This document shows, in pieces, positions 27,583-64,000 of a stretch of 64,000 bases of DNA (position 1 is its first letter; each line of letters opens with the position of its first letter). The DNA comes from Planctomycetota bacterium (GTDB lineage Bacteria > Planctomycetota > Planctomycetia > Pirellulales > Pirellulaceae): positions 62,001-126,000 of the forward strand of contig VGZA01000001.1 in NCBI GenBank assembly GCA_016872775.1, written 5' to 3'. A model generated the notes under the pieces. It searched no databases. It saw nothing but the letters and a program-made list of their open reading frames with translations, and was not told where the DNA came from. The translations under genes and the position numbers were made by a program.

Positions 27583-28878
27583 TCACTCCCGTGGGTTGTT
27601 CCAGTAGATCTTCACGTTATGTGTCTGCCGGCCCACGGCGACAATGTCCACGCGACCGTCGCCGTTCAGGTCGCCCGCGGCCAGATCCTCGATCGCGACA
27701 CCGCCTGGATCGATGATCGAACGCGTCCAAGACGTTTTCTCTCCATGGGGTGGATCGTAGATCCGCAATCCGCGCCGCCAGTTATCCGACCGATCGTCGC
27801 GAACGCCAATGATCAGTTCTTCCTCGGGGTCGTCGTCCAGGTTGGCACAGGCCACGGCGTGCCCCCATTGCAAGTCTTCGTCCAGCACCTGCCGACTCCA
27901 TAGCCATTCGCCTTGACCGGGACGCGGTGAATCCGGTCGGGTATAAACCACGACTTGATGCCCGTGCCACGGTTCGATCGTTGCCAGATAATCGCGACCG
28001 CCCGTCAGCATGCCGCGTCGGATTTCACTCGCGCCCCGATTGGGACTCGTCTCTTGGTTTCCCGTCCCGATTCGCGTGCGCCGCCAAGCACCGGGCCGCC
28101 GCGGTTCCTGTGGCTGCTGCGGATTGTCACGCTGCGGGGCACGCTCAAGCAGATGCACGCCCTCGAACGACACGACGAGCAGTTCCAGTTTGCCATCCCC
28201 ATCGATGTCGGTCGGATGCAGGTTGTGGCTGACGTGCAGTTCGTCGTCCAGAACGCGGGCTTTCCAGGGCCCCGACTTGGGGTCGTCGGGAATCGTGTAC
28301 GAAAGCAACCGCACGCCTTGTTCCGCGAAATGCGGGCGCGTCGACCCGCGCCCCAGCAGCGGTGAAACCAACAGTTGGGCGCGGCCCGTTCCGTCCAGAT
28401 CGGCGAAAGTCATCCGATGCGTCGTTGGTTCCTCGCCAATCGGATGAACGGTCCATGGCGCCGCCGGGTCCGCGACCGCTCGCATCCACTGGATCGTTCC
28501 GCCTGAACTGGTGTTGCCCGGATTCCAGTCGGCGCCCACGGCGAAGTCGGGTTTCCCATCGCCGTCAATATCGTACGGCGCGAAACAGACGTTGTCTTTT
28601 CGGGTCTGCCCCGGACCGATCAGCAGGTGCTCGCGGAACGACGGGTTCTCGAGCCACAGAATCCGCTCGGAATCCACGATGGCGACATCGAGTTTGCCAT
28701 CCTGGTTCATGTCCAACAGCCGGACGGCGTAGCCCACGGTGAGTTGCGTATCGAGTTGTTGTTCGCGAAAGGAGAACTTCGCCGGCTCCGCCGCCTCGCT
28801 GCAGATAGTACCTGGACCGCAATGCAATAGCGCCAGGATGAGGCCCGCTATTGTGGTCCGAAGCAGATTCGCATTCAT
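27583..28878 (-). CDS. Exported FG-GAP/VCBS-repeat protein
   Basis: A 431-residue protein. ATG at 28878 is chosen because it opens a signal peptide (LLRTTIAGLILALLHCGPG) after GGGAAG; the frame is open but unlikely further upstream. Calcium-binding repeat loops occur along the chain: DMNQDGKLDVA, DIDGDGKPDFA, DIDGDGKLELL and DLNGDGRVDIV, typical of integrin-like beta-propellers. No catalytic domain is seen. Such proteins are abundant in planctomycetes and are thought to act in surface binding. The regulator with broken receiver lies directly downstream. Confidence 0.8.
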   Translation of the reverse strand: MNANLLRTTIAGLILALLHCGPGTICSEAAEPAKFSFREQQLDTQLTVGYAVRLLDMNQDGKLDVAIVDSERILWLENPSFREHLLIGPGQTRKDNVCFAPYDIDGDGKPDFAVGADWNPGNTSSGGTIQWMRAVADPAAPWTVHPIGEEPTTHRMTFADLDGTGRAQLLVSPLLGRGSTRPHFAEQGVRLLSYTIPDDPKSGPWKARVLDDELHVSHNLHPTDIDGDGKLELLVVSFEGVHLLERAPQRDNPQQPQEPRRPGAWRRTRIGTGNQETSPNRGASEIRRGMLTGGRDYLATIEPWHGHQVVVYTRPDSPRPGQGEWLWSRQVLDEDLQWGHAVACANLDDDPEEELIIGVRDDRSDNWRRGLRIYDPPHGEKTSWTRSIIDPGGVAIEDLAAGDLNGDGRVDIVAVGRQTHNVKIYWNNPRE

Positions 28879-29033: not shown

Positions 29034-32000
29034 TCATGGCCCTGTGCTCAGTCCGAGGATATACGAACGCCAGTCGGCCTCGAATTCCGCCAACGGCATG
29101 CCGACAAAGCGTTCGAAACGCGCGACCGGTTCGATCGAGCGAGTCCCGCGGCGAACGTAGGAGTCAAGGAATCCGCCCGAGATCAGGTCATATTGAAAAA
29201 CCAGGTAGTAGGCAACACCCCAGGCAACGAGATAGTGCCGATGGGAGTCCGGCAAATCATGGCTGGCAAGAAACGCCTGGTCGTTCGCCCGCAGCAATTC
29301 CGTCAGCGACAGGTATTCCTGCGACATGAGCAATCGCCGGAGTTCCCGCAAGCGGCTTCGGTCGGGCCCGTCAATGCGTAACGTATCGTCGTCGAGCTGA
29401 CTCGATTCGACGATCTGAGCCAACCCTTCGTTCAACCATCTGGGGACGGCATACCGATCTCCGGGGTAAACAAAGTCCTCCAGATAGGCATGGAAAAGCT
29501 CGTGGTTCAGACGTTGGAACAGTTGCCGGGCAAGCTGATCGAATCGACGAGCATTTCCTAGGCGGGCTTCCTGAATCCGGCTGATTGCTGTTTCATATTC
29601 ATCTCCCCAGAGTTTTCTGCGCAGCCGCAGTTCTTCGCGCACCTTTTCGTCGCTGAATTCAGCGGCTCGCAATTCACGTGCCACGTTGGCGATGCGCGAA
29701 GGGAATTCGGCGCGCCGTTTCTCGAACTGCCACTGCTGGACATCCAGCTCCTGCCTGACGACCGACCATCGCTCGCTGAACGCGGCTAGATCGCTGCCCG
29801 CGATCACCTGATGCGAATCGACGGCATAAACGGCCGGACCGGTGAACTCCAGCCCCGCATCGGCGAAGACCCTGGCTCGTTCCTCTTCGGACCCCAGCAG
29901 CACGACGCGCAGCAGGCGTTGGGGAGCCCTGCGGGGCGGAAGCAGTTGCCGGAACGCGCGGAATACCTGCTCGATGCGAACGACGGCTCGACGCGTTGCC
30001 TGATCGCCCGCGGTGCTTTCGAGTTCAAACCAGGGGCCACGGTAGTCCCACCAGCGGGTCCCGCCGCGAAGTCGTTCCTCGAGCGGGACGCGGTCCATCC
30101 GCGCCGCCTCGATACTCGCGCGACCGCGGATCCAGCGGAATCGTTCCACCAGTTCCCCGCGCTGCTCGTCCGGCAATCGCTTGAATTCCTGGACATCCTT
30201 GGCAGCGAGCGGGTGCACGACCGCGGAAACCGCTTTGCCCGGCGCGCGAGTGATCTCGGCGAAATCGAACTCGTCATCGAGCTCGGCAAGCGACAATCCG
30301 CGCAGCAGCCGGCCATCTCGCAATCGCAGTTGTTCCATCGGCCAATCACCGGCGCGCAATCCAAGGATCGAATTTTCGTCGATTCGAGGCAGCGCCGCGA
30401 TCGATTTTTCCCCCTCCGCCAATCCTGGCACGCGCGGGTCGTGCACGCCTAAAAATTCCTGCCGCTGTTCGGACCACTCAATCGCCTGCAGCACCGCGAT
30501 CGATTTGCGCGTTCGTACCTGTGGATGCCCGCGCTGACGCAATGCATCCACCGTTCGCGGAGGCACCGATTCCTCAACTACCAGCTCGTCCGGTCTCCAT
30601 TGATGATGAAATCGCGGATCCTGGACGGCATCGGCCAGATCGCGGTCCAGGTCGAGCCGCCGCACCAACAGGGAAGCAACCTGGGAGATAATCGTCGGAC
30701 CGCCGGCGGCGCCGAGTGTAAGCAGGGGTTTCCCGTCCCGCAGCACAATGGTCGGGCTCATGCTCGACAACGGCCGCTTGCCCGGTTCCACTCGATTCGC
30801 CTCCGCTCCCACCAGTCCAAAAGCGTTTGGAACTCCCGGTTCCAGCGAAAAATCATCCATCTCGTTGTTCAGAAAGACACCTGTGCCGGGGACCACGACC
30901 TTGGAACCGAACGAGGTATTGACCGTGGCTGTAATCGCCACCCAGTTCCCCTCGTCGTCGGCGGCCGCGATGTGGGTGGTGTGTTTCTGGAATAGCTCTT
31001 CGCGGGCCACTGGCGGTTCGCCATGCCCGTCGACCGCCGTTGCCCGCTGCGGGTCGATGCGGCGCGCGAGCGCGGCGCCGTACTCGGGCGAAGCGAGTCC
31101 GCGCGGGACGGGTGCAAAGGCCGGATCGCCGAGCCAGTAGGCGCGGTCGGCAAACGCCAGCTTCATTGCTTCCGCCATCAGGTGGAAGCAGGCGGCGGGA
31201 TCTTGCGAGTGCACGGCTCGCAGGTCGAACGGGGCCAGCGTATTCAAGATCTGCGCCACGTGCACTCCGCCGGAACTTGGCGGCGGAAAGCCGATGATCT
31301 CATATTCGCGATAGCGGGAACGGAGCGGTTCGCGCGATATTGCTTCGTAGCGGGCAAAATCCGCGGCGGTCAGGATACCGCCATTCTCGGTCATCCATTC
31401 CCCGACCGACTCGGCGAACGGCCCCTGATAAAACCAGTCGACACCTTTTTCGGCGATCGCACGGTAAGTTTTTGCCAGGTCGGGCTGGAGCAGGATTTGC
31501 CCTTCGCGCAGCGGATCGCCGTCGGGGGCCAGCAGAATCCGGCGCGTCTCCGGGAATTTCTCGATCGCCGACCGCGACTGGCGGATATTCCGGGCGTAGA
31601 CGGCATCGATCGCAAAGCCGCTGTCGGCGATCCGCGCGGCGGGCAACAGTAATTCGCTGAGACTACACCGGCCATGTTCCTTGATCGCCCGCTCATAGGC
31701 CCGCAGCGCGCCAGGCACCGCCACGGCCAACGGGCCTGTCTGACTCCATTCGACCTTCGCCACGCCATTGACCAGGTACATATCGGCGCGCGCGGCGGCC
31801 GGCGCGGTCTCGCGCCCGTCGATGGCGAACAACTTGCCGTCCGCGCGACGCAATAATACAAAACAACCGCCGCCAATCCCCGAGTTGTGGCCGTCGACGA
31901 CTCCCAGCGTCAGCGCGGCCGCTACGGCCGCATCGATGGCGTTTCCGCCCGCGCGAAACACATCGAGCCCGGCACGCGTCGCACGCGGGTGGACCGTCGC

Positions 32001-32081
32001 CACCATGTTTCGTGATGAACCGGGGGCTGCCGACAGCGCCAGCACCAGGAACAGCGGAGCCGTGGTGACTGTGGAGATCAT
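29034..32081 (-). CDS. Gamma-glutamyltransferase fused to a DUF1570-like zincin domain
   Basis: A 1015-residue exported fusion. Residues about 25-550 are gamma-glutamyltransferase: NAIDAAVAAALTLGVVDGHNSGIGGG, then the autoprocessing site HTTH with Thr near 369 as new N-terminal nucleophile, NTSFGSKV, and the oxyanion region LSSMSPTIV and GAAGGPTIISQ. After a small beta segment (LRLRDGRLLRGLSLAE, residues 585-600) comes a second domain with LNHELFHAYLED, a HEXXH motif at 860-864, and NEGLA with Glu near 885 as likely third zinc ligand. That part resembles planctomycete DUF1570 proteins. Seven bases separate it from the DUF3500-like gene. Confidence 0.85.
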   Translation of the reverse strand: MISTVTTAPLFLVLALSAAPGSSRNMVATVHPRATRAGLDVFRAGGNAIDAAVAAALTLGVVDGHNSGIGGGCFVLLRRADGKLFAIDGRETAPAAARADMYLVNGVAKVEWSQTGPLAVAVPGALRAYERAIKEHGRCSLSELLLPAARIADSGFAIDAVYARNIRQSRSAIEKFPETRRILLAPDGDPLREGQILLQPDLAKTYRAIAEKGVDWFYQGPFAESVGEWMTENGGILTAADFARYEAISREPLRSRYREYEIIGFPPPSSGGVHVAQILNTLAPFDLRAVHSQDPAACFHLMAEAMKLAFADRAYWLGDPAFAPVPRGLASPEYGAALARRIDPQRATAVDGHGEPPVAREELFQKHTTHIAAADDEGNWVAITATVNTSFGSKVVVPGTGVFLNNEMDDFSLEPGVPNAFGLVGAEANRVEPGKRPLSSMSPTIVLRDGKPLLTLGAAGGPTIISQVASLLVRRLDLDRDLADAVQDPRFHHQWRPDELVVEESVPPRTVDALRQRGHPQVRTRKSIAVLQAIEWSEQRQEFLGVHDPRVPGLAEGEKSIAALPRIDENSILGLRAGDWPMEQLRLRDGRLLRGLSLAELDDEFDFAEITRAPGKAVSAVVHPLAAKDVQEFKRLPDEQRGELVERFRWIRGRASIEAARMDRVPLEERLRGGTRWWDYRGPWFELESTAGDQATRRAVVRIEQVFRAFRQLLPPRRAPQRLLRVVLLGSEEERARVFADAGLEFTGPAVYAVDSHQVIAGSDLAAFSERWSVVRQELDVQQWQFEKRRAEFPSRIANVARELRAAEFSDEKVREELRLRRKLWGDEYETAISRIQEARLGNARRFDQLARQLFQRLNHELFHAYLEDFVYPGDRYAVPRWLNEGLAQIVESSQLDDDTLRIDGPDRSRLRELRRLLMSQEYLSLTELLRANDQAFLASHDLPDSHRHYLVAWGVAYYLVFQYDLISGGFLDSYVRRGTRSIEPVARFERFVGMPLAEFEADWRSYILGLSTGP

Positions 32082-32088
32082 CTGGTCG

Positions 32089-33168
32089 TCACCCGACCGC
32101 GTTGGTCTTCACCGCGGGATCATTCGCGATATTCACCCAGACATGCACATGCGGCACGCCACGGAAATACCAGACGAACGCCGGACCTTCGAGCCGCCAG
32201 TTGTCCCAGACCTTGTCGCCGCCCAGATCCTGGTCGGTGTAGAACGCAAGATGACACTTGTCCAGCCCTCCCTGTTTGGTCAGGCACTGGGCAACCTCGT
32301 CGCGGTCGGACTGCCGGTAAGGTTCGAGCAACTTCCGCAACACCTCTTGCACGAGCCCTTTCTGATCGCCGCTCAGTTCGGCGATCGGCAGGCCGTCGAA
32401 CTTGCCGGCGAGACCACGGAACGCGATGCTCGACTCCTGCGGCGACTTGGCCACCTCGGCGATCGCCCGCTGTTTCCCATCAAGCATCTCGTAGACTTTG
32501 TTGGTAGCCAAAGCCTGTTCCCAGAATACGTTGCCCGGGTGACCTGGCTTTTCGTCGAAACCACTGGCGGCATGACCATAAAAGAGGGGACCGCCAAAAG
32601 CGACATGCTCCGTGCTGTTGCCGTCGCATCGCATCGTCATATGCCGGCCCGTCATTACGAATTCAAATTTCGCGTCTCCGGGCTTACCAAAAATCGCCAG
32701 GCTCTGGTCGCCGCCGAACGGCTTGCCGCCCGTATCGTCCTTCAGCTGTTTGTCGATTCTCGCGTGCCACTCCGGGTTGACGATGCCTTCAAAAATCGAT
32801 CGAACCAGTCGCTGCTGCTGTGGCGTGTAGAAGTCGCTGTGGATCGACGGCTCGGTGATCTGCCAGTTGTTCGAAACCCGCGACCGCAACAGGCCCCGTT
32901 TCGGATCGACATGATTCCAATCGAAGCAGACGACTTTACGTTGGGCGGGCGTCAGCAGGTCGAACAGTTCCTTGACGCTCGACTCGGGAGCGGTGCCTGT
33001 GGGAGTTGCCTCCGCAGGAGCCGACAGCAATCGGGAGCCCGGCGCCCCCGTAGCACCCGCGGCCGCAATTCCCGCGGCGCCGATGCTCGCCAATCGCAGG
33101 AATTCGCGCCGGCCAACTTCACTTGATTCACGTTCACAATCAGGACAAAACGGCTCCCGAGAACCCAT
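32089..33168 (-). CDS. Tat-exported DUF3500-like protein
   Basis: A 359-residue protein. ATG at 33168 has GGGGGAG six bases upstream. An N-terminal CPDC pair precedes a twin-arginine signal (GRREFLRLASIGAAG). The body contains FEFVMTGRHMTMRCDGN and FGGPLFYGHAASGFDEKPGHPGNVFWEQA, which match the DUF3500 family; no function is established for it. The gene ends seven bases before the gamma-glutamyltransferase fusion, so the two are probably one transcript. Confidence 0.75.
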   Translation of the reverse strand: MGSREPFCPDCERESSEVGRREFLRLASIGAAGIAAAGATGAPGSRLLSAPAEATPTGTAPESSVKELFDLLTPAQRKVVCFDWNHVDPKRGLLRSRVSNNWQITEPSIHSDFYTPQQQRLVRSIFEGIVNPEWHARIDKQLKDDTGGKPFGGDQSLAIFGKPGDAKFEFVMTGRHMTMRCDGNSTEHVAFGGPLFYGHAASGFDEKPGHPGNVFWEQALATNKVYEMLDGKQRAIAEVAKSPQESSIAFRGLAGKFDGLPIAELSGDQKGLVQEVLRKLLEPYRQSDRDEVAQCLTKQGGLDKCHLAFYTDQDLGGDKVWDNWRLEGPAFVWYFRGVPHVHVWVNIANDPAVKTNAVG

Positions 33169-33278
33169 GGATGCTCCCCCCAATCTTGTCAAACCGAGAC
33201 AACCCGCGCCGGCACAACCGCAAACACCGCGCTACGCCGGTATTAGACCGGAATTTGCGAGGGCTTGCAAATCGGCGT

Positions 33279-34315: not shown

Positions 34316-35431
34316 ATGCTCACCGACGAGGCTTCCCCAGAAATGCCCCCCAATCCGATTCCGTCCGATGACGGCCAGTCCCGTTCGACGGCATGGGACC
34401 CGCGAAATGTCGACCGCCGACCGGTGAGCCTGCGCGCGGCCAACGATTTCTGCCGGCGCTACGCCCGGCAGCATGAAGAGAATTTCACCGTTGCCAGTTT
34501 TTTCCTGCCCCGGGAACTGCGAAGACATTTCTATCACATTTATGCCTACTGTCGCTGGTCGGACAATCTCGCCGACACGTCGCCCGATACCGGCTCCGCG
34601 CTGGAACAGCTTGCCCAATGGGAGCAGCAGCTCGACGACGCCTATCGCGGCCGGGCGACCCACCCGGTGTTCGTTGCCTTGACGGAGACAATCGAGGAAT
34701 TCCAGATTCCGGCCCAGCCGTTCCGAGACCTGCTCAGCGCCTTTCGCCAGGATCAGCGCCAGACGCGGTATCTTGCCGTCGATGAATTGCTCGACTATTG
34801 TCGCCGCTCGGCCAATCCTGTGGGCCGGCTGGTACTGCACCTGGGCCGCAGCGTCGACGCGACGAACCTGGACCTCTCTGATTCGATCTGCACCGGCTTG
34901 CAACTCGCCAACTTCTGCCAGGATGTGGCTCGCGATTTCGCGCGCGGCAGAATCTATCTGCCGGTCGAATGCTGGCGCGCTCACGGATACATCGAAGCGA
35001 TGTTCGAACGGCGGGAGTTCAATCCGGCGTTCCAATCGCTGCTTTCCGCGGAGGTCGAACGGGCGGAAGCGGCGCTGCGGCACGGCTGGCCGCTGGTCGA
35101 TCGGCTGCCCGGCGTCTTGGCGATCGACGTCGAACTGTTCGTGCAAGGCGGTCTGGCAATCCTGGATCGGATCCGCGGCCAGGGCTACGATGTCTGGCGA
35201 CGAAGGCCGGTCGTCGGCAAGTGGCGGAAGCTGCGGTTGCTGGCCGGCGCCTGGTTTCGTCGTCGGTTCCCGGCGTACGCCCGGCATCCGCGGCGGGACG
35301 CCGGCAAGTCGAGGGAGGGGAGTCGCGTCGATACGGAGCATGGTTCACCGACGGTGAGCTGCCCGGGCGTGGGAACACCCCAGGGCGAATCGCGGACTCC
35401 GAAATCGCTCGGAGCGAAGGACCGGCCATGA
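34316..35431 (+). CDS. hpnC: Squalene synthase-like protein HpnC (hydroxysqualene synthase)
   Basis: A 371-residue trans-isoprenyl diphosphate synthase-like protein. In the HpnCDE route HpnD makes presqualene diphosphate and HpnC converts it to hydroxysqualene. Both Asp-rich motifs are visible: YCRWSDNLAD near residue 83 and NFCQDVARDFARGRIYLP near residue 205. The last 50 residues (from about 320) are a non-conserved tail rich in Arg, Ser and Gly. The stop codon overlaps the ATG of the following hpnD-hpnE gene (ATGA), implying coupled translation. Confidence 0.9.
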   Translation: MLTDEASPEMPPNPIPSDDGQSRSTAWDPRNVDRRPVSLRAANDFCRRYARQHEENFTVASFFLPRELRRHFYHIYAYCRWSDNLADTSPDTGSALEQLAQWEQQLDDAYRGRATHPVFVALTETIEEFQIPAQPFRDLLSAFRQDQRQTRYLAVDELLDYCRRSANPVGRLVLHLGRSVDATNLDLSDSICTGLQLANFCQDVARDFARGRIYLPVECWRAHGYIEAMFERREFNPAFQSLLSAEVERAEAALRHGWPLVDRLPGVLAIDVELFVQGGLAILDRIRGQGYDVWRRRPVVGKWRKLRLLAGAWFRRRFPAYARHPRRDAGKSREGSRVDTEHGSPTVSCPGVGTPQGESRTPKSLGAKDRP

Positions 35432-37788
35432 GCGAACGACGGTGGAACCGCGAATCAAGTTACGCCTGGTGCCGTCGTGAGACGCGCCGCGCGGCATCCA
35501 GTTTTCATTGGTCGTTCCACGTGCTGCCACGCGCCAAACGGCGCGCGATGTACGCCCTCTATGCCTTCGCGCGCGTCGCGGACGATCTTGTCGACGTCGA
35601 CAAGTCGGCAAGCCAGAAGCGGAACGCTTTGGGGAATTGGCGCCAGGCATTCACCGCGTCGTTACGCGAGGAATTCCTCCATCCGCTCTTTCCGGCGCTG
35701 CATGACGCAATGATCCGTTTCCGTATTCCGCCCCAACTATTCCACGAACTCCTGGACGGCGTCGCGCTCGACATCGAACATCGGCCTCCGGAATCGTTGG
35801 CGGAGTTAATCGGTTATTGTGATCGAGTCGCGTCGTCCGTGGGGCTGGCTTGCCTGCACGTATGGGGCGTAAGCAGCACGCAGGCATTCGCGCCGGCGCG
35901 GTGCTGCGGCTGGGCGTTCCAGCTGACCAACATCCTGCGCGATCTGGCCGAGGACGCGCCGCGCGGGCGCCTCTACCTGCCACTGTCCGACCTGCGCGAT
36001 CACGAGCTTACGCCCGAACAATGGCGATCCAAGAACTGGTCAGCTCAGCACAACGCCCTGTTTCGATTCGAGCTACAGCGCGCGGAGCGCTGGTTCGCGG
36101 AGGGACAGGCGACCCGCGATTTTCTGACGCGGGACGGTCAGCGCGCATTCGATTTGATGTTCCAACGCTACCGGTTACTGCTGCGTGAAATCGGCCGGCA
36201 GCGGAACCCCTTTCAGGGCCGCCGGGCGCGCATCGCGTTGACCTCGAAATTGTCGATCCTGGCTTCCGCACTGCTGGGCAGGACCCCGACCTCCGCTGCA
36301 CCGTCGAAATCGGCGGACACGCCGCCGGGTACGTCGCCAGGGCGGAAGAGCGAACCGAGTTTCTGGATAGGGTCGGCACGGCCGCGACCTCGCGTCGCGA
36401 TCATCGGAGGAGGACTGGCGGGTCTCGCCGCCGCCGTCCAGCTCTGCGAACAGAATTTCGTGGTAACGTTGCTGGAATCGCGACGACAGCTCGGCGGACG
36501 GGCCGGATCGTTCACACTCCCCGATACCGGCGAGGAAATCGATCACTGCCAACATGTCGGAATGGGCTGCTGCCGGCGCCTGATTGAGTTGCTGGAGCGG
36601 GTCGGGATCACCGACCTTTTCCGCCGCGATCGACGACTGACGTTCATCGGCCCCGACGGACGCACCGCGACAATGGCGGCAACCCCCGGGCTGCCCGCAC
36701 CGCTCCACTTGGGAAGCTCGTTCCTCAGCGCGCATTACCTTTCCCTCTCCGATCGGATTTCGATCGTCCGCCGCATCCGGGAGATGCAGGCGTTCGATGT
36801 CCGCGGGGACGGCGCCGACGAAACGATCGACGACTGGCTGCGTCGTCGCGGCACATCGGAGCAGGCGCGAAGCCGATTCTGGAGCACCGTTCTGGTGAGC
36901 GCTCTGGGCGAGACGCTGGAACATGCGTCGCTTCGCGCCGCGCGGAAAGTGATCGTGGATGGATTTCTGAACGACCGCGACGGATACGAATTGATCGTCC
37001 CCCGCGTGCCGCTCGCCGAGATCTATCGCCGAATCGACGACTGGCTGACCGCGCGGGGCGCGACGATCCACACATCCGCGATGGCCACCGAGGTCAGCTT
37101 CCGCGAGGGAATCGCCAGCGGAGTCGATTGGCGCGACATTGTCGGAACACGCTCGGACCTGAACCACGAAGCCGTCGATTATGTCGTTGTGGCTGTCCCT
37201 TGGCGGCGCGTCAAACCGCTGTTTCGCCAGGCACCGTCGACGCTCGACCCTTCGTTGAGTCGCCTGGAGGAAATACCGTCGTCGCCCATCACCAGCCTGC
37301 ATCTCTGGCTCGACCGTCCCTGCCTGCCCATTCCGCACGCCGTGCTTGTCGATCGGCTGGCCCAATGGGTTTTTCGGAGCGACCACGACGAAGTCGGGGC
37401 CCGCGACCAACAGCCGCAACGGTACCACCACCAGGTCGTGATCAGTGCCTTCCGCACATCGGAGGTCGACGACAAAGACGCACTGACGCGCAAGGTACTG
37501 GAGGAACTCTCGGCGATCTGGCCGCAATTCGGCGCCGCAACTTTGCTCGACCATCGCTGGGTCTGTCAGCCGGAAGCGGTGTTCTCCTATCGACCGGGAA
37601 TCGATGCCCTGCGTCCGGCGCAGGAGACCGCGGTCCCTAACCTGTTTCTGGCGGGGGATTGGACGCGTACCGGCTGGCCGGCGACGCTCGAAGGCGCCGT
37701 TCGCAGCGGTATGATCGCCGCGGATGGCATCCTGGCCGCGGAGCGCAAGGCGGCATGCTCGGCAACCATGGCCACCGCTGCTACGTGA
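35428..37788 (+). CDS. hpnDE: Fused presqualene diphosphate synthase and squalene-forming FAD oxidoreductase (HpnD-HpnE)
   Basis: A 786-residue fusion of two hopanoid enzymes normally encoded separately. Residues about 1-280 are HpnD, joining two farnesyl diphosphates: FARVADDLVDVD and NILRDLAEDAPRGRLYLP carry the two Asp motifs. A Pro/Ser-rich linker follows (about 283-320). Residues 323-786 are HpnE, which reduces hydroxysqualene to squalene: RVAIIGGGLAGLAAAVQL (FAD-binding), RRQLGGRAGSF, and the C-terminal FLAGDWTRTGWPATLEGAVRSG. There is no stop, frameshift or ATG in the linker, so the fusion is genuine. The start at 35428 overlaps the hpnC stop; an upstream open frame lies within hpnC. 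Confidence 0.9.
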   Translation: MSERRWNRESSYAWCRRETRRAASSFHWSFHVLPRAKRRAMYALYAFARVADDLVDVDKSASQKRNALGNWRQAFTASLREEFLHPLFPALHDAMIRFRIPPQLFHELLDGVALDIEHRPPESLAELIGYCDRVASSVGLACLHVWGVSSTQAFAPARCCGWAFQLTNILRDLAEDAPRGRLYLPLSDLRDHELTPEQWRSKNWSAQHNALFRFELQRAERWFAEGQATRDFLTRDGQRAFDLMFQRYRLLLREIGRQRNPFQGRRARIALTSKLSILASALLGRTPTSAAPSKSADTPPGTSPGRKSEPSFWIGSARPRPRVAIIGGGLAGLAAAVQLCEQNFVVTLLESRRQLGGRAGSFTLPDTGEEIDHCQHVGMGCCRRLIELLERVGITDLFRRDRRLTFIGPDGRTATMAATPGLPAPLHLGSSFLSAHYLSLSDRISIVRRIREMQAFDVRGDGADETIDDWLRRRGTSEQARSRFWSTVLVSALGETLEHASLRAARKVIVDGFLNDRDGYELIVPRVPLAEIYRRIDDWLTARGATIHTSAMATEVSFREGIASGVDWRDIVGTRSDLNHEAVDYVVVAVPWRRVKPLFRQAPSTLDPSLSRLEEIPSSPITSLHLWLDRPCLPIPHAVLVDRLAQWVFRSDHDEVGARDQQPQRYHHQVVISAFRTSEVDDKDALTRKVLEELSAIWPQFGAATLLDHRWVCQPEAVFSYRPGIDALRPAQETAVPNLFLAGDWTRTGWPATLEGAVRSGMIAADGILAAERKAACSATMATAAT

Positions 37789-58481: not shown

Positions 58482-59408
58482 TCACGTTCCGAACTCAGGC
58501 CGGCGTTTGGCGAGTTGCGATTGTAGACGCTGGACGATGCTGCTGTGCATCTGACTCACGCGGCTTTCACTCAGATCGAGTGTCGCGCCAATTTCCTTCA
58601 TCGTGAGTTCCTCATAGTAATAGAGGATGATGATCAGTCGTTCGTTGCGGTTCAGTCCTTTGGTAACGAGTCGCATCAGGTCATTTTTCTGGATGCGGCG
58701 CGTGGGATCTTCGCCTTTCTTATCCTCGAGAATGTCGATCTCGCGGACGTCCTTGTAACTGTCGGTTTCGTACCATTTTTTGTTGAGGCTGATCAGGTTG
58801 ACGGCGTTTGCTTCGAGGATCATCTTTTCGAGTTCTTCCAGCGGCAGCTGCATCTGCTCGGCCAGTTCCAGTTCAGTGGGGTACCTTCCGAGTCGAGCTT
58901 CCAGGCGTTTGGTGGCTTCCTGAAGTTTGCTGGCTTTGGAGCGGACGAGTCGCGGGACCCAGTCCATGGTCCGGAGTTCGTCGAGCATGGCGCCGCGGAT
59001 ACGCGGCACGCAGTAGGTTTCGAACTTGACACCCCGGGTGAGATCGAAGGCGTCGATTGCGTCCATCAGTCCGAAGACGCCGGCGGAAACGAGATCGTCG
59101 AGTTCGACGCCTTCGGGCAGTCGTGCCCAGATACGTTCGCCGTTGTATTTCACCAGCGGAAGGTAATTTTCGACGAGTCGGTTGCGCGTATCCTGGGTGG
59201 GAGATTCCTTGTATTGCCGCCAGAGTGCCTCGAGCGCTTCGTTCATTGGCGAGCTGACGCGTACTTCGGCTTGGTCGTCGAACTCTGCCAATTGATCGGC
59301 GATCTGGTCGATCCGGGACGCGATATCCGGCGGAGGGCCGACGGGCACTTCCGTTTGCATCGAGGGGAGCTGCGTTAATTCAGCCGTTGTCGCGAGCGTC
59401 GTCGCCAT
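58482..59408 (-). CDS. fliA: RNA polymerase sigma factor of the FliA/WhiG (sigma-28) group
   Basis: A 308-residue sigma factor for late flagellar or motility promoters. Region 2 reads RNRLVENYLPLVKYNGERIWARLPEGVELDDLVSAGVFGLMDAIDAFDLTRGVKFETYCVPRIRGAMLDELR in part, with region 3 (GRYPTELELAEQM) and region 4 (LYYYEELTMKEIGATLDLSESRVSQMHSS). The residue pattern is that of FliA/SigD rather than the primary sigma factor. Its upstream neighbours are a small membrane protein and the FlhF-FlhG pair. The hairpin at 59428-59445 precedes its GGAGG ribosome-binding site. Confidence 0.9.
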   Translation of the reverse strand: MATTLATTAELTQLPSMQTEVPVGPPPDIASRIDQIADQLAEFDDQAEVRVSSPMNEALEALWRQYKESPTQDTRNRLVENYLPLVKYNGERIWARLPEGVELDDLVSAGVFGLMDAIDAFDLTRGVKFETYCVPRIRGAMLDELRTMDWVPRLVRSKASKLQEATKRLEARLGRYPTELELAEQMQLPLEELEKMILEANAVNLISLNKKWYETDSYKDVREIDILEDKKGEDPTRRIQKNDLMRLVTKGLNRNERLIIILYYYEELTMKEIGATLDLSESRVSQMHSSIVQRLQSQLAKRRPEFGT

Positions 59409-59427
59409 GCCATCCTCCGTGATTGCA

Positions 59428-59445
59428 CCGCCGCTGTAGCGGCGG
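59428..59445 (-). promoter_or_regulatory. Hairpin in the fliA leader
   Basis: CCGCCGCTGTAGCGGCGG forms a strong 7-8-bp stem. It lies 20 bases upstream of the fliA ATG and just before the GGAGG site, with no T tract. It could affect translation or be a remnant of the end of the 81-residue gene's transcript. Weak evidence for a regulatory role. Confidence 0.35.
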
Positions 59446-59517
59446 ACTGACTTTCGAGTTCCATCTCAGTCAACAACACCCGGCGCCGGTTCGATTACCG
59501 GTCCGGGGTGTCCGATG

Positions 59518-59763
59518 TCATCCAGGTTTTGTCGCGGCCGATTCCGCGCGATTCATCTCTTCAACGAATCGGCGCCGAACCGCGTCGGTGACGATCGACT
59601 CGGCGGCCAGACCGAGCAGAAAGCCCAGGGCCGCGAACACGATCGCTCCGCCGCAACTCGTCATCACCGTTCCTTCCAATCCCGCGTCGTGCATCGCACC
59701 GCGCGTGAGCATGGTGAGGAAAGCAACGATTCCGAGAATTCCAGCGTATTTTTTTGCGACCAT
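59518..59763 (-). CDS. Small membrane protein in the flagellar region
   Basis: An 81-residue protein of unknown function with two hydrophobic segments, YAGILGIVAFLTMLTRG at the N-terminus and SCGGAIVFAALGFLLGLAAE in the middle, joined by a short Gly/Asp loop, and a charged C-terminal tail RRRFVEEMNR. It lies between the FlhG-type ATPase gene and fliA on the same strand, so a role linked to flagellar regulation is plausible but unproven. About 194 bases separate it from the FlhG gene, with nothing recognisable in that gap. Confidence 0.55.
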   Translation of the reverse strand: MVAKKYAGILGIVAFLTMLTRGAMHDAGLEGTVMTSCGGAIVFAALGFLLGLAAESIVTDAVRRRFVEEMNRAESAATKPG

Positions 59764-59957
59764 CGTCTATCGCGTACCGGGAAACTGCGAATCGAAACCG
59801 GCGAATACCTTGGGAATTCGCTGCCTTCGTTTATCGACGATTGCCGAGGTCGATGTTGAGTGATTTCTCCTTTTTCCGCGAATCTGTCCCGCAATCTGGA
59901 CGATGAAGTATATTTGCGGCACCGCGCATCGCGCGCTGATCGTTACAACCGGTCAAC

Positions 59958-60803
59958 TCAAGCCGCCCGATTTTCCCGCGATCGGGATGATTCCTCCTGT
60001 GCCAGTCGGCCAGCCAATTGTTCCAGGGCCAGGACGGCCGGCTGGCGAGTGGCGGCGAGCACGAAGGGAGTGCCATTCCGGGCCGCGTCGGGGATCGCAT
60101 CGTCGCACGGCAGCCAGCCGAGCGATTCCACGGAGAGGCCCAGGAAGCGTCGCGTCGACTGATCGATGCGCCGATGGACATCCTCCGCGGCCCGCCGATC
60201 GGGACACTGGTTGACCAGTAATCCGATCGGGAAGGAAATATTGCCTTGCGTGAGCGCCTTGATCGTCGCGTAGGTATCCATCACGGCGTACGATTCGCAG
60301 CTGGTTACCATGACGATTCGTTGCGCCATTTCCCAGAATCGTCGCACGGACTCATCGATGCCGCAACCGACATCCACGACGACCAGGTCGGCGTGGCGAC
60401 CGATTGACCGCAGCTGCTGCAGCAGCCGATTGTGTTGCCGCGAGGAATAATCGTGCCGCGTTCCCGGCGCCCAAAGCCCCGGGACCAACTGCAGGCCCGC
60501 GGGTCCGCGCACCAGCACTTCGTGAATGTCGCGTCGCAGGTTCATCACATCGGCGATATCGCCGCGCTCGGTGACACCGCACAGCATCGCGACGTCGCCT
60601 CGGCGCAGGTTGGCGTCCACCAGCACGACCCGCGAACCTTGATTGGCCATCGCGACGGCGAGATTAACCGCCAGGGTCGTGACGCCCAGGCCGCCCTTGC
60701 CGCCGGTAAGCACGATCGACCGCGGCGCCGGGCCGGCGTCGATGCCCGGTCCACGCGAGGAGCACAGCACGAGTTTTCGAAGTTCCGTGGCTTGATCAGA
60801 CAT
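59958..60803 (-). CDS. flhG: MinD/FlhG-type ATPase
   Basis: A 281-residue ParA/MinD-family ATPase. The deviant Walker A is GGKGGLGVTTLAVNLA; Walker B and the switch region appear as ADLVVVDVGCGID, with VLVDANLRRGD at the A-prime motif. FlhG restricts flagellar number and placement by acting on FlhF. ATG at 60803 overlaps the flhF stop by eight bases, consistent with the usual flhF-flhG order. The C-terminal part lacks an obvious membrane-targeting helix of the MinD type, so binding to the membrane may go through FlhF. Confidence 0.87.
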   Translation of the reverse strand: MSDQATELRKLVLCSSRGPGIDAGPAPRSIVLTGGKGGLGVTTLAVNLAVAMANQGSRVVLVDANLRRGDVAMLCGVTERGDIADVMNLRRDIHEVLVRGPAGLQLVPGLWAPGTRHDYSSRQHNRLLQQLRSIGRHADLVVVDVGCGIDESVRRFWEMAQRIVMVTSCESYAVMDTYATIKALTQGNISFPIGLLVNQCPDRRAAEDVHRRIDQSTRRFLGLSVESLGWLPCDDAIPDAARNGTPFVLAATRQPAVLALEQLAGRLAQEESSRSRENRAA

Positions 60804-62016
60804 GGATTTGTTCCAATCCCAGCACGACGCGCGCCAGCTTGCGGCGTTCGGCCGGTTCGATGTCGGCTGGCACATTCTGGCCGTTGGTGATGTAGCTCAG
60901 CGGCAATCGGCTGGAGCGCACCAATGGCAGCAGATTTCCCAGCCCGGTCGCTTCGTCCAGTTTCGTCAACAGCAGCGACGTCACGCCGACGCGTGCGAAT
61001 TTTTCGGCGGCCTTCTGCATTTGAGGCAGGCTGGCCACGGCGCTCAGCACCAGATGCACTTCGTGCGGCTGGGCCTCGTGCAGCAGCGATTTCAACTCCT
61101 GGATCCGCACTTCGTCCCGAGGGCTTCGTCCCGCGGTGTCCATCAACACCAGATCGAAGTCGGAGAATTTCTGAATCGCCGCCCGCATTTCGCGTGGCGT
61201 CGCCACCACTTCCATCGGCAGGTCCATGATGTCGGCGTAAGTTCGCAACTGTTCCACGGCGGCGATGCGATAGGTGTCCACGGTGATCAGGCCGACGCGG
61301 CGGTGTTCGCGCAGTCGCTGGTTCGCCGCCAGTTTGGCGATCGTCGTCGTCTTGCCGACGCCGGTCGGGCCGACCATCGCCACTATACGGCACTCCCCCG
61401 GCGCGGGCTCGATCGGGCCTGTGACCCGAATCTCCTCTTCGATGAACCGGGCCAGACGAGCCTTCAACAACATCAGGTCGTTCAGGTCGTCGGCGGACGC
61501 GCTGCCGCGGATGCGATCGATCAGCTCCCGCGCGAACTCCTCGCTCAGCTCGGCATCGATCAGGTCGGTGAACAGCCGAAAAAGGGCGTCCGGAAGTTCC
61601 GGTCGCTGGGACGGCTCACGTCCCCGGCTGAGCTGTTCCACGAGCGAATCGAGGCTTGACAGCTGTTCTTTGCGGGCTCCGCGGAAGCGGGACCGGTAAC
61701 CAAGCTCACCCAGCGCCGGCAAGCGGACTTGGGCCGCGGCGGCCGTTTCCTCGCCGCGCCATTCGGCCTCCATCGGCTCCACTTCGTCCGAAGAATCGTC
61801 GGCGTCGCGTGACGGCGGCCGCAGGTCGGTGAGATGACTCGGGACGTTCACTTCGACCGAAGCGGTAACCTCGATGTCGCGCGCTCCGGTAAACCAGGTC
61901 CATAACCCACGCGGCAACTCGCGCGTATGCAGCACGGCGGCTTGTGGGCCTAGTTCGTTACGCACCAGTCGCAATGCATCGTGCATGGTCCGCGCTCGAA
62001 ATGTCCTGACATCCAT
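60796..62016 (-). CDS. flhF: SRP-like GTPase FlhF
   Basis: A 406-residue GTPase of the SRP family that marks the site of polar flagellar assembly. The N-terminal 190 residues (starting MDVRTFRARTMHDALRLVRNELG) form the basic B domain and linker; the NG domain has the P-loop GPTGVGKTTTIAKLAA near residue 215, DTAGRSPRDE, and LLLTKLDEATGLGNLL. It lies between flhA and flhG, as in other flagellated bacteria. Confidence 0.93.
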   Translation of the reverse strand: MDVRTFRARTMHDALRLVRNELGPQAAVLHTRELPRGLWTWFTGARDIEVTASVEVNVPSHLTDLRPPSRDADDSSDEVEPMEAEWRGEETAAAAQVRLPALGELGYRSRFRGARKEQLSSLDSLVEQLSRGREPSQRPELPDALFRLFTDLIDAELSEEFARELIDRIRGSASADDLNDLMLLKARLARFIEEEIRVTGPIEPAPGECRIVAMVGPTGVGKTTTIAKLAANQRLREHRRVGLITVDTYRIAAVEQLRTYADIMDLPMEVVATPREMRAAIQKFSDFDLVLMDTAGRSPRDEVRIQELKSLLHEAQPHEVHLVLSAVASLPQMQKAAEKFARVGVTSLLLTKLDEATGLGNLLPLVRSSRLPLSYITNGQNVPADIEPAERRKLARVVLGLEQIHV

Positions 62017-62068
62017 GTCGGAAGCCTCCTTTCAACGTGGTTCGATACCGCCCTGGGCCCGGCGGCGT

Positions 62069-64000
62069 TCATACTTTCTGGGGTACAAGGTCGGAGACAA
62101 TCGCAACCGATTCAATCCGCGTATCTCGAGTGATCTCGTTGTAGCTCAGGATGACCAGTCGCGGCAGATTCGGCGCCGTCATCAGCTTCAATCCGGGCCG
62201 GATCTGCGGACTCACCAGCAGCAGGGGCGGATGGTTCGACCGCGTCAATTTCACGACTTCCTCGCCGATCAACTCGCACGTGCGGTCGACCGCCTGCGGC
62301 GACATGCGGATGAACAGCCCCCGCTCGCTATGCTCGATTCCCGCCGCGATGCGGTCCTCCATCGCCGGATCGAGTGTCACGACGTGCAGCCGCTGGTCTT
62401 TGTCGCGATACCGCGAACAGATCGTGCGCGCCAGCCGATGACGGGCATACTCGGTCAGCCATACCAGGTCCTTGGTCTTGGGACCATGGTCGCCAAGCGT
62501 TTCCAGGATTGTCCCCAGCTGTCGGATCGGCACCTCTTCACGCAGCAGCGTTTGCAGCACCTGCTGCACATCCGTCAGTTTCATCACCCCCGGGATCAAC
62601 TCATCGACCACCGCGGGCTGGGATTTCTTGAGTTCGTCGATCAGATGTTTCGTGGCATCCCGCGTCAACAATTCGTCGGCGTGCCGCCGCACGACCTCCT
62701 GCAGATGGGTCGCCAGTACGGCCGTCGGCTCGACGGGAGTAAACCCCTGCATCACGGCGCGGTCCTTCAACTGCGGTTCGATCCAATAAGCGGTCCGCTG
62801 GAACGCGGGGTCCCGCGACTCTTCCCCAGGCAGCCGACCGTTCGATATTCCCGAATCCATCGCTAGCAGCCGATCGGGAAACACCGCGCCATGGGCGACG
62901 GTGTTGTTGGCGATCTTCAACCGGTAGGAGTGGTCGGGCAATTGCACATTGTCGCGAATACGGACCTTGGGCAAGACGATGCCGATCTCGGCCGCCACGG
63001 CCTGGCGAACACCGGTAATCCGTGGCAACAGATCGCCGCCTCGATTGGGATCCGCCAGCCGGATCAAGCCTACACCAATCTCCATTTCCATCGGATCGAT
63101 CGCCAGGTAATCCTCGATCCGCTCCTCGACGCGCTTCTTGGAGTCGGCCTGGGCACGCTCCTGTGCGGCCTGCGCCGCGTGTTCGGTCTTCTTGCGACGA
63201 TTCATCACCGCCGCCAGCCCCAGACAGCCGCAACCGATCGCCAGCAGGGGGATCGTGGGCAGATTCGTGAGAATCAGAATGCCAAGGAATCCGGCCGCCA
63301 CGACCATCGCGATCGGTCGGGCGAACATTTGCTTCAGCATCTCGCTGGGAAGATTCTGGCGCTGCGTGCTGCGGGTCACCAGATAACCGGCGGCCATCGA
63401 AATCAGGAAGGCCGGCAACTGGCTGACCAGACCGTCTCCGATCGTCAACTTGCTGAAGACCTCGCCGGCCTGACGCGGTGACATGCCGGCGTCGAACACG
63501 CCGATAATCAATCCGCCAAAGATATTGATCAGCGCAATGATGATGCCCGCGATCGCATCGCCGCGCACGAACTTGCTGGCACCATCCATCGCCGCATAGA
63601 AGTCGGCCTGCTGCGTAATTTCCTCGCGGCGACGCTGCGCTTCCCGCTCGTCGATCAACCCCGCGTTCATGTCGGCGTCGATCGCCATCTGCCGGCCAGG
63701 CATGCCATCCAGAGCGAATCGCGCGGCCACCTCGCTGATCCTGGTCGCACCCTTGGTGATCACGACAAACTGAATCACGATAATGATCGCGAAGATGATC
63801 ACCCCCACGACCAGACTGTCCCCCGCCACGAATTCGCCGAAGGAACGAATCACCCCCCCCGATGCCATCAGCCCATCGACACCGCCGCGCGTAAGGATCA
63901 AGCGCGTTGAGGCCACGTTCAGCACCAGACGAGCCAGGGTCGTCGAGAGAAGCAGTGAAGGAAAAACACTGAATTCGAGCGGCGTCCGCACATACAAGGT
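62069..64000 (-). CDS. flhA: Flagellar export apparatus protein FlhA, 5' end missing
   Basis: The last 643 residues of FlhA; the frame is open through the end of the window and the usual N-terminus (about 40-60 residues) is missing. FlhA forms the export gate of the flagellar type III system. Visible are LYVRTPLEFSVFPSLLLSTTLARLVLNVASTRLIL in part, the FHIPEP-type central region (RISEVAARFALDGMPGRQMAIDADMNAGLI), membrane helices to about residue 270, and the cytoplasmic domain with RIRDNVQLPDHSYRLKI and LLVSPQIRPGLKLM. Stop codon is 52 bases before flhF. Confidence 0.95.
   Translation of the reverse strand, partial: TLYVRTPLEFSVFPSLLLSTTLARLVLNVASTRLILTRGGVDGLMASGGVIRSFGEFVAGDSLVVGVIIFAIIIVIQFVVITKGATRISEVAARFALDGMPGRQMAIDADMNAGLIDEREAQRRREEITQQADFYAAMDGASKFVRGDAIAGIIIALINIFGGLIIGVFDAGMSPRQAGEVFSKLTIGDGLVSQLPAFLISMAAGYLVTRSTQRQNLPSEMLKQMFARPIAMVVAAGFLGILILTNLPTIPLLAIGCGCLGLAAVMNRRKKTEHAAQAAQERAQADSKKRVEERIEDYLAIDPMEMEIGVGLIRLADPNRGGDLLPRITGVRQAVAAEIGIVLPKVRIRDNVQLPDHSYRLKIANNTVAHGAVFPDRLLAMDSGISNGRLPGEESRDPAFQRTAYWIEPQLKDRAVMQGFTPVEPTAVLATHLQEVVRRHADELLTRDATKHLIDELKKSQPAVVDELIPGVMKLTDVQQVLQTLLREEVPIRQLGTILETLGDHGPKTKDLVWLTEYARHRLARTICSRYRDKDQRLHVVTLDPAMEDRIAAGIEHSERGLFIRMSPQAVDRTCELIGEEVVKLTRSNHPPLLLVSPQIRPGLKLMTAPNLPRLVILSYNEITRDTRIESVAIVSDLVPQKV

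Follow-up and report, generated by a model that had tools for sequence, protein, structure and literature searches.

A gamma-glutamyltransferase joined in frame to a DUF1570-like zincin domain in a member of the Pirellulaceae

Introduction

Gamma-glutamyltransferases (GGTs) are described in the review PMC8062742 as exported precursors that cleave themselves before a threonine, with which the small subunit then begins. The same review lists GGTs that were purified in active form with a His tag at the C-terminus, so additions at this end can be tolerated; it also reports a harmful effect on Bacillus licheniformis GGT of deletion beyond the ninth residue from its C-terminus. The proteins to which the other half of the locus presented here is closest are DUF1570 (PF07607), which by its Pfam name is a family of unknown function, and the gluzincins of clan MA (Peptidase_M1, Peptidase_MA_2).

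Here, we analysed a stretch of 64,000 nucleotides, referred to in its full length as the window, where an intact open reading frame of 1015 residues without internal stop combines a GGT with a DUF1570-like zincin. E. coli GGT (PDB 2e0w/2dbu) is matched over residues 23–550 of the fusion, including the nucleophile Thr368 and the motifs PLSSMSP and NNEMDDF. Compared with gamma-glutamyltransferases in general, the fusion has about 457 extra C-terminal residues, whereas the standalone orthologs of the taxonomic family stop at or near the junction. Relative to DUF1570, the zincin half adds a helical insert of about 90 residues and an N-terminal region lying outside the Pfam model. With the gluzincins it shares HEXXH followed, after 20 residues, by Glu, and it is to this stretch that the weak profile matches are confined; its scores lie below the family cut-offs, and peptidase activity is a prediction.

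A description of a GGT-DUF1570 fusion was not found in listings of the open-access literature, and the passages of PMC4568574 consulted hold nothing on fusions; going by the same listings, DUF1570 is named in one paper and DUF3500 in three, none of them a functional study. GGT is a known enzyme, and its joining to a DUF1570 partner was found to be unreported.

Results

Organisation of the fusion gene

The fusion gene, its parts and the two adjoining genes are compiled in Table 1. Within the first 30 residues of the protein, the hydropathy reached a maximum of 2.02. When the columns conserved in at least 90% of the relatives were inspected, the GGT half of the fusion was found to retain 193 of its 196 and the zincin half 43 of its 49, with HEXXH, Glu and Tyr among those kept. 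Of the six zincin columns that differ, one corresponds to the start Met in standalone proteins, and a smaller share of conserved zincin columns than that of the fusion was seen in just 4 of the 40 standalone relatives. As read from the alignments, both predicted sets of catalytic residues are complete in the fusion.

Table 1. Features of the fusion gene and of its direct neighbours, in window coordinates.
Feature	Position	Strand	Basis or remark
Fusion gene GGT::DUF1570-like, 1015 aa	29034..32081	-	ORF and domain searches
N-terminal hydrophobic, signal-peptide-like segment, residues 1-23	32013..32081	-	Sequence, hydropathy
GGT domain, residues 24-557	30411..32012	-	PF01019, TIGR00066, E. coli GGT 2e0w
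Thr368, predicted autoprocessing nucleophile and first small-subunit residue	30978..30980	-	PDB chain starts, TTH motif
Junction/linker, residues 558-577	30351..30410	-	Near standalone GGT ends; hydrophobic N-terminal segment of the partner missing
DUF1570-like zincin domain, residues 578-1015	29037..30350	-	Pfam, alignment, profile-profile comparison
Long, probably helical insert before HEXXH, residues ~767-857	29511..29783	-	Profile-profile gap, low-confidence model
HELFH, residues 860-864	29490..29504	-	H, E and H invariant in 41/41
Glu885 (NEGLA), presumed third zinc ligand	29427..29429	-	E in 41/41
DUF3500 gene, TAT-signal-like N terminus, directly upstream, 7 nt gap	32089..33192	-	Pfam
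FG-GAP-repeat protein, signal-like N terminus, downstream of the fusion	27583..28878	-	Likely start 28878; ORF open to 29037

Another composite open reading frame of the window, with 939 residues (34969–37788, plus strand), carries a squalene/phytoene synthase domain (residues 173–422) followed by an FAD amine-oxidase domain (residues 483–922). It directly follows another squalene/phytoene synthase gene (34316–35431), and we take it to be an HpnD-HpnE fusion adjoining HpnC, in hopanoid/squalene synthesis.

The gamma-glutamyltransferase half

An initial annotation of the locus, made from sequence, had proposed a complete gamma-glutamyltransferase in the N-terminal half. This was borne out by PF01019, which scored 550.8 bits over residues 40–551 (cut-off 27), and by TIGR00066, an NCBI equivalog model, which scored 488.4 bits over residues 26–550 (cut-off 357.85). 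The best-matching solved structure was that of E. coli GGT (2e0w) with an E-value of 1e-124. The autocatalytic threonine, previously placed at position 369, had to be moved by one residue, since the small-subunit chains of solved GGTs in the PDB and the TTH motif both start at fusion residue 368, identifying Thr368 as the predicted nucleophile. Further GGT motifs begin at residues 405 (NNEMDDF), 437 (PLSSMSP) and 457 (GAAGGPTI).

GGT orthologs (E ≤ 1e-120) were present in 109 of 241 genomes of the family, own genome included, the longest other frame having 846 residues. In the two longest of these frames (L235, L236), the extra length precedes the GGT domain and the C-termini end at the usual place.

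The zincin half

For the C-terminal half, a DUF1570-like, gluzincin-like pattern of HELFH and a downstream NEG had been claimed and a domain search suggested as a check. This search supported the assignment, with PF07607 (DUF1570) matching residues 878–961 of the full protein at 27.8 bits (cut-off 22). DUF1570 was matched by all 41 members of the C-terminal family (E ≤ 0.01). An alignment of the half with 40 standalone relatives, reaching down to about 31% identity, revealed both His residues of HEXXH, the intervening Glu, a downstream Glu, one Tyr and three Trp to be invariant in 41 of 41 sequences. The invariant Glu lies 21 positions past the second His of HEXXH and is found, in the fusion, within NEG at residues 884–886. 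The HEXXH variant was HEAFH in 34 of the 41, and the context of the later Glu, itself present in all, was NEG in 28. Because of the invariance of HEXXH, Glu and Tyr, and because 40 further family genomes encode the half as a gene of its own, the domain signal is regarded as more than chance.

When the half was compared, profile to profile, with three ordinary DUF1570 proteins encoded in the same genome, the match had a probability of 97.5 and an E-value of 8.6e-12. The match spans positions 139–458 of the C-terminal-half query (residues 555–1015 of the fusion) and pairs HEXXH with HEXXH and WLNEGLA with W-x-x-EGLA, the approximately 90 residues before HEXXH being unmatched in these proteins. 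Searching the PDB with a core profile of 40 sequences at E ≤ 10 returned just two sequences, a neutral metalloprotease and a glutamyl aminopeptidase (E-values of 0.18 and 0.24); in both alignments, HEXXH is paired with HEXXH and NE with NE. The full zincin profile returned four designed helical proteins; these match the helical insert and were set aside as composition matches. A single-sequence structure model of the C-terminal half had a mean pLDDT of 42.8, and the charged helical insert before HEXXH (query positions 213–303) was the only stretch modelled with some confidence, with a pLDDT of 66–89 in places. The C-terminal half was without a match in PHROGs, and 52 pattern matches in the viral contigs searched for zincin relatives included no relative.

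The zincin half might be no peptidase at all but a catalytically weak or structural module that binds, anchors or regulates the GGT. In line with this alternative, no Pfam peptidase model was above its cut-off for the C-terminal half, Peptidase_M1 (PF01433) reaching 11.1 bits against the 27.7 needed, for which reason the half is not filed as M1, and DUF1570 is named in a single paper of the open-access library searched. Across the 41 sequences, Peptidase_M1 was matched in ten and Peptidase_MA_2 in four, all weakly (E up to 5) but in keeping with a zincin; several other recurring weak Pfam matches were to coiled-coil families, as expected from the helical insert. However, HEXXH, the downstream Glu and the Tyr are the same in every one of the 41 sequences, even where identity falls to about 31%. 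Such constancy would be difficult to account for if no metal chemistry were involved, and we consider a non-peptidase module unlikely.

Distribution of the zincin gene and search for further fusions

With residues 555–1015 as the query, the C-terminal half was retrieved at E ≤ 1e-20 from 41 of 241 family genomes and from 74 of the 396 genomes that sampled the order, and at E ≤ 1e-10 from 27 of the 392 that sampled the phylum; the three samples overlap, and each count includes the own genome. In the family and order searches, every match except that of the window lay within a frame of at most 836 residues, which is too short to hold both a GGT and a zincin. Four other long zincin frames, all from the phylum sample, were rejected as second fusions, with Pfam revealing no GGT in any of them. 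Two of these (L266, L267) contain DUF1570 with at most weak further matches, a third (L268) matches no family, and the fourth (L265:1824-6002, genome G630), from another lineage of the phylum, has a protein kinase domain joined to a DUF1570 domain of the same type instead.

The combination of the two halves had been called unusual, and the searches agree: it was encountered only in the genome of the window, the sole genome of its genus in the sample, and a second GGT-zincin fusion was found in none of the 241 family, 396 order and 392 phylum genomes of these overlapping samples. A GGT of genome G276 (L269:3544-7290) likewise bears a long C-terminal addition, with the parts in the same order, but the partner there is a discoidin-like DUF7402/F5_F8_type_C region without a zincin, and its GGT is just 44% identical.

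Origin of the junction

A hydrophobic segment precedes the shared region in all 40 standalone zincin proteins (maximum mean hydropathy 1.55 to 2.93), although in these open reading frames, taken from the first start, it is not always next to the shared region; the linker of the fusion reaches a maximum of just 0.56. In most standalone GGTs, the C-terminus lies no more than a few residues from DPRVPGxAxG, a motif corresponding to residues 548–557 of the window protein; four aligned ones extend about 10 to 25 residues further. As GGTs end there and the hydrophobic segment is gone, the junction unites the natural end of a GGT with the mature part of its partner. This looks like a real, derived fusion of two formerly neighbouring genes.

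The fusion could instead be a functionless accident, arising from a recent stop loss or an assembly error, and its confinement to one genome, with no second member of the genus for comparison, would fit such an origin. Yet the junction is in frame, the hydrophobic segment of the partner is cleanly gone and the active-site residues are kept in both halves; since the signal segment of the partner would still be present after a plain stop loss or sequencing error, we regard an accident as quite improbable.

Protein trees were consistent with a vertically inherited zincin gene, the family members clustering with a support of 93/82, which is not strong, and trees of either half left the window sequence without a resolved position.

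Gene neighbourhood in relatives

A GGT was sought in 80 of the 94 zincin-carrying genomes, and an ortholog of about 60% identity was detected in ten of these. In four of the ten, the two genes are adjoining or one gene apart: in G231 and G101, the zincin gene comes directly after GGT on the same strand, at distances of 4 and 17 nt, and a PQQ-propeller gene stands between the two in G060 and G061, which belong to one genus. In the remaining six, the genes were not found adjacent, being about 74 and 417 kb apart on one replicon (G064 and G063, respectively), on different contigs (G032, G114, G057) or, in G115, with the GGT cut by the contig end. One set of 80 GGT loci, scanned with the zincin profile, contained no neighbouring partner.

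Genome-wide co-occurrence was rejected as support for a link between the two genes, as both occurred together in 10 of 241 family genomes where 18.5 are expected if GGT (109/241) and zincin gene (41/241) are independent. The link is, therefore, based on neighbourhood and not on co-occurrence.

Of 22 GGT loci, five have DUF3500 immediately upstream of the GGT, as do five of 40 zincin loci immediately upstream of the zincin gene. Directly downstream, glnD followed on the opposite strand in 2 of 22 GGT and 9 of 40 zincin loci; flhA was the downstream gene in 1 of 22 and 3 of 40, respectively. Since glnD is convergent with its neighbours, no shared transcript is implied. In several loci, glnD was followed by a 112-residue gene, which we presume from its size and place only to be PII, and then by an ammonium transporter. 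In the window itself, flagellar-type genes (FHIPEP/flhA, an SRP54-type GTPase, ParA-like) occupy positions 58482–64000 on the minus strand, about 30 kb from the fusion; such a flagellar-type run follows the zincin gene in several relatives and the GGT gene in one.

The simplest history starts from an ancestral DUF3500-GGT-zincin arrangement next to glnD or flhA; other genomes would then have lost or relocated one or the other of the genes, whereas in the lineage of the window GGT and zincin gene were fused. An alternative in which the exported protein cleaves itself at Thr368 and is cut again in the linker, freeing the zincin so that the fusion only couples production, is very unlikely in our estimation, even though the linker, about 20 residues long, shows no conserved sequence and relatives make the same proteins from separate genes, operon-like in two genomes.

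Discussion

In the reading that we favour and consider probable, the window encodes an in-frame fusion of neighbouring genes for exported proteins, in which a self-cleaving GGT would carry a zinc-binding zincin and both bond types would be cut together. The signal peptide of the GGT would export the fusion protein, and the GGT half would, by established GGT maturation, cleave itself before Thr368 to give the usual large subunit (residues ~26–367) and an unusually long small subunit of 648 residues (368–1015). From the order of the parts and the same maturation, the zincin would stay on the small subunit. There, to judge from its conserved residues, it would bind zinc via His860, His864 and Glu885 and would cut peptide (or other amide) bonds as a second hydrolytic activity, which may be that of an aminopeptidase, an endopeptidase or another amidase. 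The gamma-glutamyl and alpha-peptide bonds of one substrate class would thus be cut in one place, which would serve the recovery of amino acids or nitrogen. Amino acid recovery from gamma-glutamyl peptides is a reasonable guess; a role in nitrogen recovery, suggested by GGT biochemistry and by the glnD neighbours on the other strand, is speculation.

A wider and tentative proposal, which we think rather unlikely to hold in full, is that, throughout the order, DUF1570-type zincins serve an exported GGT as its peptidase partner, both belonging to a DUF3500-GGT-DUF1570 module that degrades gamma-glutamyl peptides and in several genomes adjoins nitrogen-control genes (glnD). The window protein would be the fused form of this module, a single complex cutting gamma-glutamyl and alpha-peptide bonds.

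For DUF1570, the fusion to a GGT and the gene neighbourhood provide a concrete, testable hypothesis on its function, namely that its substrates may be peptides which are either acted on or released by GGT. With the fusion, a construct for assaying GGT and zincin activities together is already available. If self-cleavage holds true for this protein, a GGT can accommodate about 50 kDa of additional protein at its C-terminus. The fusion hints that GGT and the zincin-like protein work together.
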